A stretch of DNA of 64,000 bases from Nioella halotolerans (GTDB lineage Bacteria > Pseudomonadota > Alphaproteobacteria > Rhodobacterales > Rhodobacteraceae). The stretch lies in contig QVQC01000076.1 in the NCBI GenBank assembly GCA_003428585.1, forward strand, positions 96,661-160,660. The letters run 5' to 3'. The position numbers were made by a program, and so were the translations under genes. This document shows positions 56,382 to 63,651 of this stretch, in pieces (position 1 is the first letter of the stretch; each line of letters opens with the position of its first letter). The notes under the pieces are model-generated. The model did no database searches and was not told the DNA's origin. It saw only the letters and a program-made list of their open reading frames with translations.

Positions 56382-57433
56382 AGACCTTGCCCCAACCCTC
56401 TGATCGCGCGTTCGTTCCCTTCGTCTCCGTCGCCAACATGATGCGGCTTGTCCATACGATCGGGCTGGAGCGGATGCTGTTGGAACTGGCCGATTACATC
56501 GAGGAGGATTTCCGCCGCTGGCGGCTTTTCGACAAGACGCCGCGGGTGGCGGCGCATTCGGCGCAGGGCGTGATTGAACTGATGCCGACCTCGGACGGCA
56601 CGCAATACGCCTTCAAATACGTCAACGGCCATCCGACCAACACCAAATCGGGTTTGCAGACCGTGACCGCCTTCGGCCTTCTGGCCGATGTATCAACGGG
56701 ATATCCGACGTTGTTGACGGAAATGACGTTGCTGACGGCGATCCGCACCGCCGCGACCTCGGCCATGGTGGCCCGCCACCTCGCGCCCGAGGGCGCCCGC
56801 TGCATGGCGATGATCGGCAATGGCGCGCAATCGGAATTCCAGTCGCTGGCCATGAAGGCGGTTCTGGGGATCGACACGGTGCGCCTTTACGACATCGACC
56901 GCGGCGCGACGGAAAAGGCCGCGCACAACCTTGCCGGACACGGGCTCAAGGTCGTGCAATGCGCAACACCCGAGCAGGCGATGGAAGGCGCCCAGATCAT
57001 CACCACCTGCACCGCCGACAAGCAATTCGCCACCATCCTCAGCGACAACATGGTCGGCGCGGGCGTGCATATCAACGCCATCGGCGGCGACTGCCCCGGC
57101 AAGACGGAACTGGCCCCGGCGATCCTGCACCGCGCCGCGATCTTCGTGGAATACCCGCCGCAAACCCGCGTCGAAGGCGAGATCCAGCAACTGGACCCGG
57201 ACCACCCGGTAACGGAGCTATGGAAAGTGATGACCGGCGAGGCCGCGGGGCGCACATCGCCGGGCCAGATCACGCTGTTCGACTCCGTGGGCTTCGCCAT
57301 CGAGGATTTCTCCGCGCTGCGCTATGTGCGCGACCGGCTCGACGGGACCGCGCTTTACCAGCAGCTTGACATGCTGGCCGACCCGGACGACCCGCGTGAC
57401 CTCTTTGGCATGCTCCAACGCGCAACGCCCTGA
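56378..57433 (+). CDS. Ornithine cyclodeaminase
   Basis: 351 residues from the ATG at 56378 ([17 protein letters not shown]), overlapping arginase. It turns ornithine into proline with loss of ammonia, using bound NAD. Seen: [26 protein letters not shown] in part (substrate lysine), [24 protein letters not shown] in part (catalytic Arg and NAD region), [14 protein letters not shown] (Rossmann loop), and [14 protein letters not shown] with the Asp that acts as acid/base. With rocF it forms an arginine-to-proline route. Confidence 0.94.
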
Positions 57434-57533
57434 CAGGCTTGACAGTCGCGCGCGGCTGGGCCACCTCTGCGCGCGAACAATATACCCGCAACCGGGCGTT
57501 CCGTGGGCGCCAAACCGACGAGGAGCTTTCGGC

Positions 57534-59501
57534 ATGCCCGACACTGCCCAAGCCGTCCCCCAGATTTCCCTGACCTTCCCAGATGGCAACGCGCGCGAAT
57601 TCGCGGCCGGCGTAACGCCTGCCGAAGTGGCCGAAAGCATCTCCAAGTCGCTGTCGAAAAAAGCGATCTCGGCCAGCGTGAACGGCGCCCACTGGGATCT
57701 GCAATGGCCGATCGAGACCGATGCGCAGATCGCCATCCACACGATGGCCGACGACACACAGGCGCTGGAACTGATCCGCCATGACGCCGCGCACATCATG
57801 GCCCGCGCGGTGCAGGAAATCTGGCCCGAGGTAAAGGTCACCATCGGCCCGGTAATCGAGAATGGCTGGTATTACGATTTCGACCGCGAGGAGCCGTTCA
57901 CGCCGGAGGACCTCGGCCGCATCGAGGCGAAGATGAAAGAGATCATCAACCGCCGCGATCCGGTAACAACCGAGATCTGGGAGCGCGACCGCGCGGTCAA
58001 GTATTATCAAGCGAACAACGAGCCTTACAAGGTGGAGTTGATCGAGGCGATCCCCGGCGACCAGCCGCTGCGCATGTATTGGCACGGCCACTGGCAGGAT
58101 CTTTGCCGCGGCCCGCACCTGCAGCATACCGGGCAGGTGCCCGCGGATGCGTTCAAGCTGATGCATGTCGCCGGCGCCTATTGGCGGGGCGACAGCGACC
58201 GGGCCATGCTGCAACGCATCTACGGCGTCGCCTTCAAGAACAAGCAGGATCTGAAGGCCCATCTGACCATGCTGGAGGAAGCCGCCAAGCGCGACCACCG
58301 CAAGCTGGGCCGCGAGATGGACCTCTTCCACATGCAGGAGGAGGCGCCGGGACAGATCTTCTGGCACCCCAACGGTTGGACGATCTACACCACGCTTCAG
58401 GATTACATGCGCCGCCGGCAGACAAGCGGCGGCTATGTCGAGGTGAACACCCCGCAGGTCGTGGACCGCCGTCTTTGGGAAGAGTCGGGCCATTGGGACA
58501 AGTACCAGGACCACATGTTCATCGTCGAGGTCGACGAGGAGCATGCGCGCGAGAAATCGGTGAACGCCCTGAAACCGATGAACTGCCCGTGCCATGTACA
58601 GATCTACAACCAAGGGCTGAAATCCTACCGCGACCTGCCGCTGCGCATGGCCGAGTTCGGATCGTGCAACCGGTATGAGCCATCGGGCGCGCTGCACGGG
58701 ATCATGCGGGTGCGCGGCTTCACGCAGGATGACGCGCATATCTTCTGCACCGAGGAGCAGATCGAAAGCGAGACGCTGCGCTATATCGAATTCCTCTCGG
58801 ACATCTACCGCGACCTCGGCTTTCCCGATTTCAAGGTGAAATTCTCCGACCGGCCAGAGACGCGCGCCGGGTCGGACGCGATCTGGGACAAGGCCGAAAC
58901 GGCGCTACTGGCCGCGACCCGCAAGGCCGGGATCGAGCCGGAGCTTAACCCCGGCGAAGGCGCCTTCTACGGGCCGAAGCTGGAATTCGTGCTGACCGAC
59001 GCCATCGGGCGCGACTGGCAATGCGGCACCCACCAAGTGGATTTCGTGCTGCCGGACCGGCTGGACGCGACCTATATCGGCGAGGATGGCGCCAAGCACC
59101 GCCCGGTCATGCTGCACCGCGCGACGCTGGGCAGTTTCGAGCGCTTCATCGGCATCCTGATCGAGGAACATGCCGGCAAGCTGCCCTTCTGGCTGGCACC
59201 GCGGCAGGTCGTCGTCGCCTCCATCGTCTCGGAGGCCGACGATTACGTGCACGAGGTCGTGGCCGCGTTACGCAAGGCCGGCGTCCGGGCCGAGGCCGAT
59301 ATCCGCAACGAGAAGATCAACTACAAGGTGCGCGAGCATTCCGTCGGCAAGGTGCCGGTCATCCTCGCCATCGGCCGCAAAGAGGTTGAGGATCGCAGCA
59401 CAACCCTGCGCCGTCTGGGGGAAAAACAAACATCGGTCGTGGCGCTGGACGAGGTGATTTCAAACCTTGCCGCCGAGGCCGTGCCGCCGGACCTGCGCTG
59501 A
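57534..59501 (+). CDS. thrS: Threonyl-tRNA synthetase
   Basis: 655 residues from the ATG at 57534, behind GAGGAG. Domains in order: TGS ([18 protein letters not shown]), the editing domain with [16 protein letters not shown] and later [10 protein letters not shown], the class II catalytic core with motif 2 [35 protein letters not shown] in part, zinc ligands in [10 protein letters not shown] and [11 protein letters not shown], motif 3 [22 protein letters not shown] in part, and the anticodon-binding domain at the end. It charges tRNA(Thr). Single gene downstream of the arginine genes. Confidence 0.98.
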
Positions 59502-59568: not shown

Positions 59569-59937
59569 TCAGAAATGGCTGACTTCCTCGTCGGGCCGCC
59601 CGGCGGCAAGGGCCAGCACGCCACCAAGACCGCACAGCGCGATCGGGAACATGGTGAAAACCCCGAAGCCGAAGGCGTAATACATCCCCGCCGCCGACAG
59701 CAGCAGGAAAATCCCGCCCCATAACGCGCGGGCCCGCGCCATCGCGCCACCCGCAAGCGCGAGGATCGGCGCGATCAGGCTCGCGGCCCGGATCAGTTCG
59801 GGGTTCTCCACTTGGCGGGCGAGATCCGGCACCTCGCCATACCAGTCGATGAAGGTGACATAGCCGTAGCCGAAAAAGCCGACGATCATCCCCAGAAGGC
59901 CGCCGATAATCCCCAGAACGAGGGCCGCGTTGCGCAT
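59569..59937 (-). CDS. Small four-helix membrane protein, unknown
   Basis: 122 residues with four hydrophobic helices: ALVLGIIGGLLGMIVGFFGYGYV, IRAASLIAPILALAGGAM, LWGGIFLLLSAAGMYYAFGFGVF and MFPIALCGLGGVLALAAG. A GAAGGAG Shine-Dalgarno sequence precedes the ATG. The layout resembles DUF4064-like membrane proteins, but I would not assign a family. It converges on thrS and is divergent from the bufferin operon. Confidence 0.75.
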   Translation of the reverse strand: MRNAALVLGIIGGLLGMIVGFFGYGYVTFIDWYGEVPDLARQVENPELIRAASLIAPILALAGGAMARARALWGGIFLLLSAAGMYYAFGFGVFTMFPIALCGLGGVLALAAGRPDEEVSHF

Positions 59938-60312
59938 GGGTTGGCTCCTTCAAGTCTTGCGATACCGGTCCGAAATAAGGGTGGCGACACCAAACGCCAA
60001 GGGGAAGACGGCAAAGGTTCCAAAGTGACGCCTTGGCGCCGGATTTGAAACATTCCCGTTTCGGAAGGTTTGAAAACCGTTCCGCCCGGTGCATACCAGA
60101 TATGTCCGTCAACACTCAACTATCTGATATTGAAATCCCTTTCCAGGAAAACGGCAGTCGGCCCGGATTCACGCCCCCCTGACACGGTTTCACGCCCTCG
60201 TGCATGACGGGCCTGTGATTGGCCAGTGAACACCCCGGCCGCCTATCCCTTGGTCATCGCCCTGCACAGGGGCGATCCAAGATTGTCATCAGCTTCAAGG
60301 GAGCTTCCCAAC
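59938..60312. other. 375-bp gap upstream of the bufferin operon
   Basis: No gene is supported. It holds the promoters of the leftward membrane protein and the rightward bufA, and the bufA leader with the strong hairpin at 60249-60281. I found no convincing ECF sigma-factor promoter, though such operons are often ECF-controlled. Confidence 0.6.
60249..60281 (+). promoter_or_regulatory. Hairpin in the bufA 5' leader
   Basis: CTTGG-tc-ATCGCCC (60249-60262) pairs with GGGCGAT-CCAAG (60270-60281), a 12-bp stem with a 2-nt bulge and a 7-nt loop. It ends 31 nt before the bufA ATG. There is no T-run, so it fits an mRNA-stabilising or regulatory structure better than a terminator. Confidence 0.6.
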
Positions 60313-60675
60313 ATGTCGACTCAAATGAAATCGCTGGCCCTGATGGGCGCCGTCGCCGCAGCACTTGGCTCTGTCGGTGCGACAGACGTTCAGGCGCAGG
60401 AAATGGAGAAGTGCTACGGCGTCTCGCTCGCCGGTGAGAACGACTGCGCCGCCGGCCCCGGCACCACCTGCGCCGGCACCTCGACCATCGACTATCAGGG
60501 CAACGCGTGGACGCTCGTGCCGACCGGCACCTGCGAATCCATGGAGCTGCCCGGCGACCGCCAAGGCTACACCGAAGCGTCGCTGGAAGCGGACGGCTAC
60601 AACGGCATCCAGCGTGACCTGCCCGGTGACCTCTCGAATGACGTGCTGTCCGGCTACCTGCCGGTCGAATCCTGA
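60313..60675 (+). CDS. bufA: Bufferin-type RiPP precursor (DUF2282, BufA1-like) with C-terminal extension
   Basis: 120 residues from the ATG at 60313, behind AAGGGAG. The signal peptide ([23 protein letters not shown]) is cleaved near VQA-QE. The core has the DUF2282 pattern with four cysteines, Cys34, Cys45, Cys53 and Cys74, in [19 protein letters not shown] and VPTGTCESM. In characterised bufferins an MNIO enzyme modifies core cysteines and the product binds copper in the periplasm. Odd point: about 45 residues follow the last Cys, acidic and with a repeated LPGD (LPGDRQG, LPGDLSN); family members I recall end soon after TCE. bufB follows after a hairpin. Confidence 0.92.
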
Positions 60676-60696
60676 TCGCGCCGCGAAACTGATCCT

Positions 60697-60727
60697 TTCG
60701 GGACCCGGGCAACCACCGGGTCCCGAA
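60697..60727 (+). terminator. Strong intercistronic hairpin between bufA and bufB
   Basis: TTCGGGACCCGG (60697-60708) and CCGGGTCCCGAA (60716-60727) form a perfect 12-bp stem with a 7-nt loop, 21 bp after the bufA stop. No T-run follows. It probably blocks 3' decay or attenuates, giving more bufA than bufB mRNA. Confidence 0.75.
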
Positions 60728-60755
60728 CCGTGCCATGACCACAAGGACCGGCAAA

Positions 60756-61610
60756 ATGTATGACATCGCCCGCGAAAACCGCCTGCCCGACCGGGTGGGA
60801 ATCGGATACAAATGTCAGCATTTCAATGCGTTGATGGAGGCGCCCGGCCCGGTACACTGGCTGGAAGTGCATGCCGAGAACTACATGGGCGACGGTGGCC
60901 GCCCGATCGCGCAATTGCGCGCGCTTTCCGAACGCTTCCCGATCTCCGTTCACGGTGTTGGCCTTTCGATCGGCGGCGAGGGCCCGCTCGACCCCGAGCA
61001 TCTCGCGCGGCTACGCCACCTGTGCGACTGGCTTGGGCCGGCCAGCTTTTCCGAACATCTGGCATGGTCCACCCATGGCGACCATTTCCTCAACGACCTT
61101 CTGCCCCTGCCCTACACGGAGGCGACGCTGGCCCGCGTCTGCACCCATATCGACACGCTGCAAGAGGCGATCGGGCGGCAGATGCTGCTGGAAAACCCCT
61201 CCACCTACCTCGCCTTCGAAAACTCCACGATGGACGAGGTCACCTTCCTTTCGGAGATCGCCAAGCGCACCGGCTGCGGCCTTTTGCTCGACGTCAACAA
61301 CGTCTTCGTGTCCGCCACCAACCAGAACTGGGACCCTGTCGCCTATATCGACGCCTTCCCGCTGGCCCAGGTCGGCGAGATCCACCTCGGCGGCCATGAC
61401 GAGGAGGAGGACGAGCACGGCGCGCCGCTGCTGATCGACAGCCACGGACGCGAGGTCGTCGACCCGGTCTGGACCCTCTACGCCCACACCATCGCCCGCG
61501 CCGGCGCCAAGCCGACGCTGATCGAATGGGATACCGACGTGCCGGATTTCCCTGTGCTGGCGGCCGAGGCCGCCCGCGCCGCCTCCCTTTTACATCCCGC
61601 GACGGCCTGA
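60756..61610 (+). CDS. bufB: MNIO-family (DUF692) bufferin-modifying enzyme
   Basis: 284 residues from the ATG at 60756, which has AAGGA 8 nt upstream; an ATG at 60735 lacks one. DUF692 enzymes are TIM barrels with a multinuclear iron site that oxidise cysteines of peptide precursors. Candidate ligands: His66 (SVHGVGLS), Glu100-His101 (FSEHLAW), His110 ([13 protein letters not shown]), Glu146 (LLENPSTYL), Asp179 and Asn182 ([12 protein letters not shown]), His210 (EIHLGGH), Glu257 (LIEWDTDVP). Next to bufA and bufC this is the maturase. Confidence 0.95.
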
Positions 61611-61613
61611 TCC

Positions 61614-62360
61614 ATGACCCAGCGCGATTTCACCGCCGCCATCCTCGATCCCGCCCGGCCAGTGCCCGAGGGGCTGACCGACCCGCAGGGTCGACCCGCC
61701 CTGCGCCGGTTCAACGTCTACCGCAACAACGTCGCGGCCTCGCTGACCGACGCGCTGGAAACCGGCTTTCCCGCCCTTCTGAAGTTGCTCGGGCCGGACT
61801 ATTTCCGCAGCCTCGCGGCGCTCTTCCTGCGCGCGCACCCGCCGCGCTCGCGGATCCTGTCGCATTACGGGGCCGAGATGCCGGCCTTCCTTGCCGCGTT
61901 CGAACCGCTGGCGAAATACCCCTACCTTGCCGATGTCGCGCGGCTGGAACTGGCGCTGCGCCGATCCTACCACGCCGCCGATGCCGCGCCGCTGGCCACA
62001 GGCGGGCTCGACCCCGCCGCGCTGATGGCGCTGACCCCACGTCTTGCCCCCGCGACCATGATCCTGTCCTCGCCACACCCGGTGCTCGGCATCTGGCGCC
62101 ACAACATGGACCCGGACGCCCCGCGCCCTGCCCCGCGCGCCGAGGCGGTGCTGATCGCCCGCCCCGGTTTCGACCCGGTGCCGCACCTCCTGCCCGCCGG
62201 CGGGCCCGCCCTGGCCGGGGCGCTCGACGGGCGCACCACGCTTGGCCTTGCCCTTGAACGCGCGGTCGCGGCCGTGCCGGGGATGGACGTTTCCGCCGTG
62301 CTGACCCTCATGCTCAGCACCGGCGCCCTGACCCTTTCCGATACGGGAGACACCCCATGA
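61614..62360 (+). CDS. bufC: DUF2063 (HvfC/BufC N-terminal domain) partner protein
   Basis: 248 residues, starting 3 bp after bufB. The N-terminal DUF2063 domain reads RRFNVYRNNVAASLTDALETGFPALLKLLG in part, then YFRSLAALFLRAHPPRSRIL and LADVARLELALRRSYHA, all typical of this helical partner that binds the precursor and delivers it to the MNIO enzyme. The C-terminal half is a less conserved domain. It overlaps the DoxX gene by 4 bp (ATGA). Confidence 0.93.
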   Translation: MTQRDFTAAILDPARPVPEGLTDPQGRPALRRFNVYRNNVAASLTDALETGFPALLKLLGPDYFRSLAALFLRAHPPRSRILSHYGAEMPAFLAAFEPLAKYPYLADVARLELALRRSYHAADAAPLATGGLDPAALMALTPRLAPATMILSSPHPVLGIWRHNMDPDAPRPAPRAEAVLIARPGFDPVPHLLPAGGPALAGALDGRTTLGLALERAVAAVPGMDVSAVLTLMLSTGALTLSDTGDTP

Positions 62361-62926
62361 ACGCCCTGAACTCACTGCATGACAAGGTTTTCGAGGCTGT
62401 CGAGCACCGGCTTGCCCCGGTGCTGATGCCCAGCCTCGCGCGGCTTATCTTTGCCGGGACGCTACTGGTCTATTTCTGGAATTCCGGCCTGACCAAGCTT
62501 GGCGACGGGGTCGCCGGGATCGTCCAGCCCGGGTTCAACGCCTATGCGCAGGTGCTGCCCCGCATCGCCGAGTCGGTCAGCTACGATGCCAGCCAGATCG
62601 GGTTCGGCTGGAAACTGGTCGTGCTGGCGGGCACATGGGCGGAATTCATCCTCCCCGCCCTGCTGATCCTCGGCCTGTTCACTCGGCTGGCCGCCCTTGG
62701 CATGATCGGCTTCGTCGTGGTGCAAAGCTACGTCGACATCGTCGGCCACAACGCGGATGCCAGCACCATCGGCAGTTGGTTCGACGCCACCTCCGATAGC
62801 CTGATCCTCGACCAGCGCGCGTTCTGGGTGTTCCTGTTGCTCTTCCTCGTGGTCCGGGGCGCTGGGCCGCTCTCGCTTGACGCGGTTCTGCGTGGGCGCG
62901 CCGCGCCTCAGACCAGCGCCGCCTGA
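62357..62926 (+). CDS. DoxX family membrane protein of the bufferin operon
   Basis: 189 residues with four membrane helices. DoxX motifs: ARLIFAGTLLVYFWNSGLTKL in part, the loop with PGFNAYAQVLPRIAE, TWAEFILPALLILGLFTRLAALGMIGFVVVQ in part, and FWVFLLLFLVVRGAGPLSLDAVL in part. DoxX proteins often close DUF2282/DUF692/DUF2063 operons and may reoxidise or supply electrons at the membrane. Its last 19 bp overlap the convergent ArsC-like gene. Confidence 0.92.
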   Translation: MNALNSLHDKVFEAVEHRLAPVLMPSLARLIFAGTLLVYFWNSGLTKLGDGVAGIVQPGFNAYAQVLPRIAESVSYDASQIGFGWKLVVLAGTWAEFILPALLILGLFTRLAALGMIGFVVVQSYVDIVGHNADASTIGSWFDATSDSLILDQRAFWVFLLLFLVVRGAGPLSLDAVLRGRAAPQTSAA

Positions 62927-63234
62927 ACCGCCTTGCCCCAGCCAAGGTAAAGCGTCCCGTCATCGGCCCGGATGACGGGGCGTTTCATCAGGGTGGGATG
63001 CGCGCGAAGCAGGTCCAGCGGGTCGCCCGCCCGCGCATCCTCCGACAGGCCGCGCCAGGTGGTCGACCGCCGGTTCACCAGGTCCGCGCCGAACGCATCG
63101 TGAAACGCGGCCAGAACCTCGGGCGCCAGCGGCTCCGCGCGCAGGTCATGGAACCGCACCGCGTGGCCCGCCGCCTCCAGCGCCTTTGCAGCCTTGCGGC
63201 ACGTGTCGCATGTCCTGATCCCGTAAAGCTCCAT
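62908..63234 (-). CDS. ArsC/Spx family thioredoxin-fold protein
   Basis: 108 residues from the ATG at 63234 (MELYGIRTCDTCRKAAKAL), behind GGAGGCGG. The Cys-x2-Cys in CDTCRKA, the HDLRAEPL strand, and RRSTTWRGLSEDAR plus LMKRPVI are typical of the ArsC/YffB/Spx superfamily. The TLMKRPVIRADDGTLYLGW segment keeps the cis-proline and Arg. It lacks the ArsC arsenate-binding loop arginine pattern, so it is more like YffB, a glutathione-dependent reductase-like protein. It converges on the bufferin operon. Confidence 0.88.
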   Translation of the reverse strand: MELYGIRTCDTCRKAAKALEAAGHAVRFHDLRAEPLAPEVLAAFHDAFGADLVNRRSTTWRGLSEDARAGDPLDLLRAHPTLMKRPVIRADDGTLYLGWGKAVQAALV

Positions 63235-63444
63235 CCTGCCGCCTCCTTGAGCATCGCCGGTCACAATCCCGCAAACCGGCCCGAAATTTCTTGCGTTTTG
63301 GGCAAAGCACCGCATTTTCGGTATCGTGACAACAAGATTTCACGCAAGCGGGCTCTCAAGAAGGCCGGCGGGGATCCTCTGTCGGCACCATCCCGCCGCG
63401 CGCGACGTGGGCGGACAAGACTGGACTTGAGAAGGAAGACGGAT

Positions 63445-63651
63445 ATGCCCACTGGCACCGTGAAATGGTTCAACACCACCAAAGGTTACGGCTTCATCGC
63501 GCCCGATGCGGGCGGCAAGGACGTGTTCGTGCACATCTCTGCCGTCGAGCGATCGGGCCTCACCGGGCTCGCCGACAACGAAAAGGTCGGGTACGAGCTG
63601 CAAGAAGGCCGCGACGGCCGCGAATCGGCGGTGGAGTTGCAGAAACTCTGA
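63445..63651 (+). CDS. Cold-shock domain protein (CspA family)
   Basis: 68 residues. Beta-barrel cold-shock domain with RNP1 KGYGFIAPD and RNP2 VFVHISAVE; the start MPTGTVKWFNTTKGYGF is typical. It binds single-stranded RNA and melts structures. A GAAGGA Shine-Dalgarno sequence precedes the ATG. The 210-bp upstream region gives room for a long leader, as common for cold-shock mRNAs. Confidence 0.95.
   Translation: MPTGTVKWFNTTKGYGFIAPDAGGKDVFVHISAVERSGLTGLADNEKVGYELQEGRDGRESAVELQKL

Follow-up and report, generated by a model that had tools for sequence, protein, structure and literature searches.

A bufferin operon in a 64,000-nucleotide stretch of Nioella halotolerans DNA (the window; part of contig C77 of the 3.5-Mb genome) carries, upstream of its precursor gene bufA, a tandem pair of short palindromes, or dyads, that recurs at bufA in many members of the family Rhodobacteraceae. 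The gene cluster itself is ordinary and the novelty lies in this promoter element, the function of which is predicted. As a whole, the finding is probably explained by a Buf1 operon under the control of a class II activator bound to the tandem dyads, and not under that of sigma-F and NrsF.

A tandem dyad is conserved upstream of bufA

Alignment of upstream regions gave a conserved block of two dyads, TNACR-N4-YGTNA, 15 bp apart. Of 67 non-redundant upstream regions, 52, among them that of the window, reached a tandem score of at least 15 out of 20, compared to 2 of 2010 dinucleotide shuffles. The 67 regions were obtained from 92 loci by removing 4 without a bufA by pattern and merging repeats. 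At a dyad spacing of 15, 43 loci scored 16 or higher, while no other spacing between 10 and 30 gave more than 8. A strict version of the pattern, matched exactly, has 47 sites, spread over 46 of the 248 family genomes, and none for a reversed control. Of the 47 sites, 44 lie no more than about 140 bp upstream of bufA (29 of 30 loci by script and 15 of the other 17, 14 by coordinates and one by script), a rate that is not independent, as the strict pattern was derived partly from bufA promoters of the same genomes; the scarcity of sites elsewhere and the reversed control are independent. The slightly divergent copy in the window itself is missed by the strict pattern. Among 385 genomes of the class, a similar pattern, slightly different and of low sensitivity (1 of the 5 family genomes sampled was recovered), matched once, at bufA in a family member, and was absent from the 380 genomes outside the family, a negative that applies to strict copies only, with bufA presence in those genomes unchecked. 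We found no description of the element in the bufferin, DUF692, DUF2282, sigma-F or copper literature, with most subscription papers and the first bufferin paper outside that search.

Conservation of the element as DNA is well supported by these comparisons. Each dyad could also form a 5-bp stem that closes a 4-nt loop, and the tandem might then represent RNA hairpins in the leader rather than DNA sites. However, the fifth pair of the dyads holds a non-pairing A-C in 22 of 178 cells, which favours a protein site in DNA over an RNA stem, and what is conserved is the letters and not the pairing. A promoter-like region also lies downstream of the dyads, and the hairpin explanation appears extremely improbable.

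Strict sites were also found away from bufA (gene names by eye). In genome G117, which has no listed bufA match, an exact tandem dyad (L159:4017-4044, minus strand) is found in front of an L,D-transpeptidase-like gene that has a signal-like start. The site in G195 precedes an MsrA-like gene, inside a short repeat, and that in G123 is probably in coding DNA. A wider regulon including the L,D-transpeptidase-like gene was considered and dropped, as the gene was located by motif in 14 of 30 loci (two of these positions being unlikely and the other 16 loci falling outside the check) and none scored above 13 of 20.

Promoter-like hexamers and a predicted leader stem-loop follow the dyads

Past the second dyad, the alignment continues with N-T-G-G, the T of which is present in 89 of 89 dyad-positive rows; this column lay outside the score by which the 89 rows were selected. 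The T falls in a -35-like hexamer in the window, and a putative -10-like hexamer follows. A TANNNT begins 24-25 nt past the second dyad in 35 of the 89 rows, compared to at most 7 for any other single offset.

The window carries a stem-loop where the mRNA is predicted to begin. In the corresponding start range, a stem score of at least 12 was reached by 67 of 89 leaders, compared to a mean of 13.7 and a maximum of 25 in 100 sets of shuffles and to 11 of 89 leaders in a control stretch further along, a contrast that is somewhat flattered because the stem range was set after a first look. When whole leaders were scanned, the excess of stems was mild (22% of shuffles reach the observed median), with a clear peak in stem starts. 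The leader stems have 65 different left arms, their position being kept while their sequence varies. On the simplest reading, the stem-loop may act as a 5′-end stabiliser.

Dyad-type and NrsF-linked loci fall mainly into two groups

The bufferin operons of Caulobacter are sigma-F dependent (PMC3511200; PMC8224329), with a promoter of the form GTAACC-N16-CGAA (PMC3511200), and a Caulobacter sigF mutant is copper-sensitive (PMC8224329). The initial annotation had reported that no extracytoplasmic function (ECF) sigma factor is encoded near the N. halotolerans operon and that its control may differ from that of related loci. Both points held: the genome has 8 Sigma70_r4_2 matches, 6 of them over the cut-off, and none is on contig C77; no NrsF was detected there (12 of 18 candidates scored); and a family-typical tandem dyad precedes a promoter-like region that lacks a good sigma-F motif. 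Between 59938 and 60312, the best sigma-F site has 3 mismatches of 10.

Across the family, NrsF was over the cut-off in 35 of 248 genomes, and the two promoter types were compared among 147 loci. Removing 3 without a bufA by pattern (L212, L214 and L269, the first two of which have an NrsF match) and merging 10 repeats left 134, of which 123 exceed 6 kb; the short locus of the window itself is outside the 123. An NrsF match was nearby in 15 of these, as judged with open reading frames (ORFs) of five NrsF loci, some probably antisense, so that the test marks nearness to an NrsF locus and not a checked gene. Only 1 of the 15 reached the dyad threshold, compared to 79 of the other 108 (Fisher p = 9e-7, with rows that are not independent). 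Sigma-F-like sites with at most 1 mismatch are present in 6 of 15 NrsF-linked loci and 5 of 108 others; when 2 mismatches are allowed, the counts are 11 of 15 and 23 of 108. In a tree of BufB made by a quick method from 122 of the 123 loci, 13 of 14 NrsF-type rows belonged to a weakly supported (39) side group of 20 rows that lack dyads, while all 79 dyad rows fell within a group of 101 (Shimodaira-Hasegawa-like approximate likelihood ratio test, SH-aLRT, 97). None of the 15 NrsF-linked loci directly follows thrS. The grouping in the tree indicates that the contrast between dyads and NrsF linkage is mainly one between two operon lineages. At these thresholds, 25 loci have neither a dyad nor a sigma-F-like site, and 6 of them have a dyad score of 14.

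Three loci (L089, L236 and L249, two of them from Tabrizicola) occupy the thrS address and have a sigma-F-like site, no linked NrsF and a dyad score below the threshold; in these, the promoter looks to have been replaced in place. Such relatives, the sigma-F dependence of the Caulobacter operons (PMC3511200; PMC8224329) and the six Sigma70_r4_2 genes over the cut-off would be in keeping with a sigma-F type ECF factor encoded elsewhere in the N. halotolerans genome that runs the operon. With NrsF not found among the candidates scored and no site with fewer than 3 mismatches upstream of bufA, this explanation is very unlikely.

Placement of the dyads suggests a class II activator

The proximal dyad lies just upstream of the -35-like hexamer, which points to the placement of a class II activator. 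Paired palindromes are typical of repressors too, and the sequence gives no sign of the direction of regulation, so the dyads might instead be the operator of a metal-sensing repressor that sits beside the -35 and is released under stress. We consider this explanation unlikely, as the second dyad stops short of the -35-like hexamer and covers neither it nor the -10-like hexamer, and as a promoter that is weak by consensus suits an activator.

The closest described box that we found belongs to AgrR, a type II activator of the OmpR family that regulates silver resistance in Cupriavidus; this box is a 6-4-6 inverted repeat, ATKACA-N4-TGTMAT, with an extra half-site repeat (PMC7380067). For CopR and PcoR, the reported binding site is an inverted repeat contained in 16 bp (PMC7380067). 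The dyads resemble these boxes in the inverted repeat, the 4-bp spacer, the core ACR-N4-YGT and the position adjoining the -35 (PMC7380067), a likeness that would favour, as the binding protein, a copper response regulator of the OmpR family like CopR, PcoR or AgrR. They differ in that the window has two full dyads 15 bp apart with other outer bases, and no classical regulator was found. The CusR/CopR model TIGR01387 exceeded its cut-off in 1 of the 248 family genomes and had no match at 1e-60 in the N. halotolerans genome (11 of 35 candidates scored). Eight OmpR-type regulators in that genome are over the Pfam cut-off, none of them conspicuous; they are at most 41% identical to five CusR-like proteins of relatives (one over the cut-off), and the best single dyad upstream of any of them scores 8 of 10. 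A classical CusR/CopR regulator is thus not supported, and a binding protein of this family seems distinctly unlikely.

The preferred reading, an activator on the dyads, also has these negative searches against it, and several other points besides the flattered leader contrast. Activation rather than repression is read from position only. A generic sigma-70 scan detects no promoter at bufA, the -10 of this species is weak, and across the alignment a -10-like signal is limited to the 35 rows given above. The dyad threshold was missed by 15 of the 67 upstream regions and by 29 of the 108 loci without a linked NrsF. The loose pattern with at most 2 mismatches has 57 matches in the N. halotolerans genome, compared to 24 for its reversed control. 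Finally, the leader of the window alone folds moderately (z = -1.97), and 11 of 200 shuffles equal it.

The operon is a complete bufferin operon of the Buf1 type

On sequence grounds, the four genes are well assigned as a complete, ordinary Buf1 bufferin operon (Table 1). The initial annotation had placed four genes here with gaps of 80, 3 and -4 bp, and these values are correct given a bufB start at 60756, which by eye has AAGGA at a plausible distance; the longest bufB ORF runs from 60735, which would reduce the bufA-bufB gap to 59 bp. Its family assignments (DUF2282, DUF692/MNIO, DUF2063 and DoxX) were borne out by a Pfam search, in which all four proteins exceed the cut-offs (BufA with 86.6 bits against 22.4), and its bufferin-type assignment passed both sequence and fold tests. 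DUF2282 and MNIO were each represented by a single gene in a search of the N. halotolerans genome. Among 80 named loci, the order bufA-bufB-bufC-doxX occurs in 57 and bufA-bufB-bufC in 20, so that the first three genes are in order in 77 of 80 and doxX is in order in 57. Downstream, the window closes at the end of contig C77, about 1 kb past doxX. PHROGs gave no match for BufA or DoxX, no NCBIfam model matches BufA, and Rfam at gathering scores gave no match within the window.

Table 1 Features of the bufferin operon and its surroundings in the window
Feature	Position	Strand	Description
thrS	57324-59501		upstream neighbour of the operon
122-aa ORF	59569-59937	-	membrane-protein-like, no Pfam match; between thrS and bufA
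Distal dyad TCACG-N4-CGTGC	60190..60203	+	with the proximal dyad, only match without a mismatch to the loose tandem pattern in the N. halotolerans genome
Proximal dyad TGACG-N4-TGTGA	60205..60218	+	starts 15 bp after the start of the distal dyad
-35-like TTGGCC	60219..60224	+	T60220 is the column with T in all dyad-positive rows
Putative -10-like TATCCC	60244..60249	+	weak in N. halotolerans; some relatives have TANNNT
Stem-loop	60256..60276	+	8 bp, 5-nt loop; at the predicted mRNA 5′ end
bufA	60313..60675	+	DUF2282 precursor, 120 aa; PF10048, E 1.1e-24
bufB	60756..61610	+	MNIO enzyme; PF05114 (MbnB_TglH_ChrH), E 2.3e-105
bufC	61614..62360	+	DUF2063 partner; PF09836, E 9.2e-26
doxX	62357..62926	+	membrane protein; PF07681, E 9.8e-9
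arsC-like gene	62908-63315		downstream neighbour of the operon
Cold-shock gene	63445-63651		downstream neighbour of the operon

The described operon Caulobacter CC3254-CC3257 (Buf1) has the same four families in the same gene order, with four cysteines and a signal-peptide-like start in the precursor and a DoxX protein (PMC12452194; PMC3511200). In contrast to it, the window has a tandem-dyad promoter region, with neither sigma-F/NrsF found nor a good GTAACC-N16-CGAA, and its BufA has a longer, acidic C-terminal tail.

The four cysteines of BufA are spaced 11-8-21, and this spacing is identical in 133 of 133 distinct precursors compared, a set that had been pre-selected by a pattern on the first cysteine motif and by the presence of at least four cysteines. 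The four-cysteine DUF2282 core of the initial annotation is thereby upheld, while the signal peptide that it had also named was judged by eye only, from a positively charged N-terminus, a hydrophobic stretch and an AQA-type end. The AlphaFold2 model of BufA has a helix at residues 6-19 at low confidence and a fair mean predicted local distance difference test (pLDDT) score of 70, and supports no claim. The tail after the fourth cysteine is bimodal in length, with 19-29 residues in 103 of the 133 precursors and 40-70 in 30. The tail in the window is of the long type, with 46 residues, an extra acidic stretch and one methionine. Several long-tailed relatives have a C-terminal end rich in Met, Asp and Glu, such as MMDEMMEEEEMDS among the bufA genes of L005, L006, L052 and L254; that these tails might bind metal is only a thought.

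BufB scored 380.5 bits against the NCBIfam model NF050167 (MNIO_BufB, "bufferin maturase"; cut-off 310), while the HvfB, HvfC and HvfX models match the operon proteins only below their own cut-offs, HvfX on DoxX. BufB aligns across most of its length with 3BWW, a close relative of HvfB with a diiron site (PMC13419390), and its ligand-containing motifs align there too, in agreement with the MNIO metal-ligand motifs of the initial annotation. The residues N175, D242 and H244 are essential in HvfB (PMC13419390). BufB keeps LDVNN at 185-189 and D-S-H at 235-237, which appear to hold their counterparts on a mapping made by motif, with the HvfB sequence not in the comparison.

The AlphaFold2 model of BufC has a mean pLDDT of 94. 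In a Foldseek search, its only matches with E below 0.001 were TglI, in two entries (TglHI, 8hci_A; E 3.3e-6, TM 0.57-0.61 over 224 alignment columns), and the DUF2063-RRE protein NGO1945 (3dee; E 6.8e-4, TM 0.55-0.66 over 218 columns). A search of the PDB by sequence with a BufC profile gave no match. In the model, the second domain of BufC resembles an RRE. A pair of an MNIO enzyme and PME1 (DUF2063-RRE), expected to install 5-thiooxazole, is likewise described for the captophorins fontiphorin, oxazolin and gonophorin (PMC13097082), from which the window differs in having a DUF2282 precursor instead of EGKCG repeats and in its HvfC and HvfX scores below cut-offs.

The dyad-type operon mostly occupies a conserved address

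Relatives of bufA are present in 178 of the 248 sampled family genomes. Among the 79 dyad-type loci, thrS is directly upstream in 63, and the flanks include an arsC-like gene in 69 and a cold-shock gene in 68; the flanks examined differ between loci, covering about 3 kb upstream and 5 kb downstream or up to 6 kb per side. The window shows the order thrS, buf operon, arsC-like gene and cold-shock gene, as do many family members. The location of the dyad-type operon mostly at one conserved address suggests vertical descent.

Relatives of the 122-aa ORF between thrS and bufA occur in the flanks of 47 of the 79 dyad-type loci, sometimes downstream of the operon. One genome carries two bufA matches in tandem (G012:C18:55402-56011). 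The bufB genes of Pararhodobacter zhoushanensis and of a record with the label Novosphingobium sp. MW5 share a very short branch (L217/L219), which could reflect a recent transfer, contamination or a wrong label.

A model for the operon and its regulation

By analogy with its homologues, BufA would be made with a Sec-type signal peptide and presented by BufC to BufB, which would oxidise the two central cysteines to thiooxazoles, and the modified peptide would work in the periplasm by binding copper. DoxX may have an accessory role. Copper buffering by the product of the operon would agree with the related systems (PMC12452194; PMC8224329). The operon is most likely outside the Caulobacter-type sigma-F/NrsF system. 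An unlinked, dimeric DNA-binding activator would probably occupy both dyads upstream of the weak -35, class II style, and activate the operon in response to metal stress; the mRNA would then start with a stem-loop that may stabilise it. We infer from sequence the activator and its inducer, the promoter hexamers and what the stem-loop does.

These findings describe, for a major marine bacterial family, a widespread operon, often at a fixed address, with a specific and different promoter element in most copies examined. The element gives a short DNA probe for isolating the regulator and enables a direct test of whether bufferin production responds to copper or another stress. We suggest tentatively, as something that could well be the case, that the Rhodobacteraceae have an undescribed, unlinked and nearly dedicated metal-stress regulator that reads paired palindromes spaced 15 bp apart and controls the core bufferin operon of the thrS locus in place of sigma-F, together with a 5′-terminal leader stem-loop whose structure is kept while its sequence changes.

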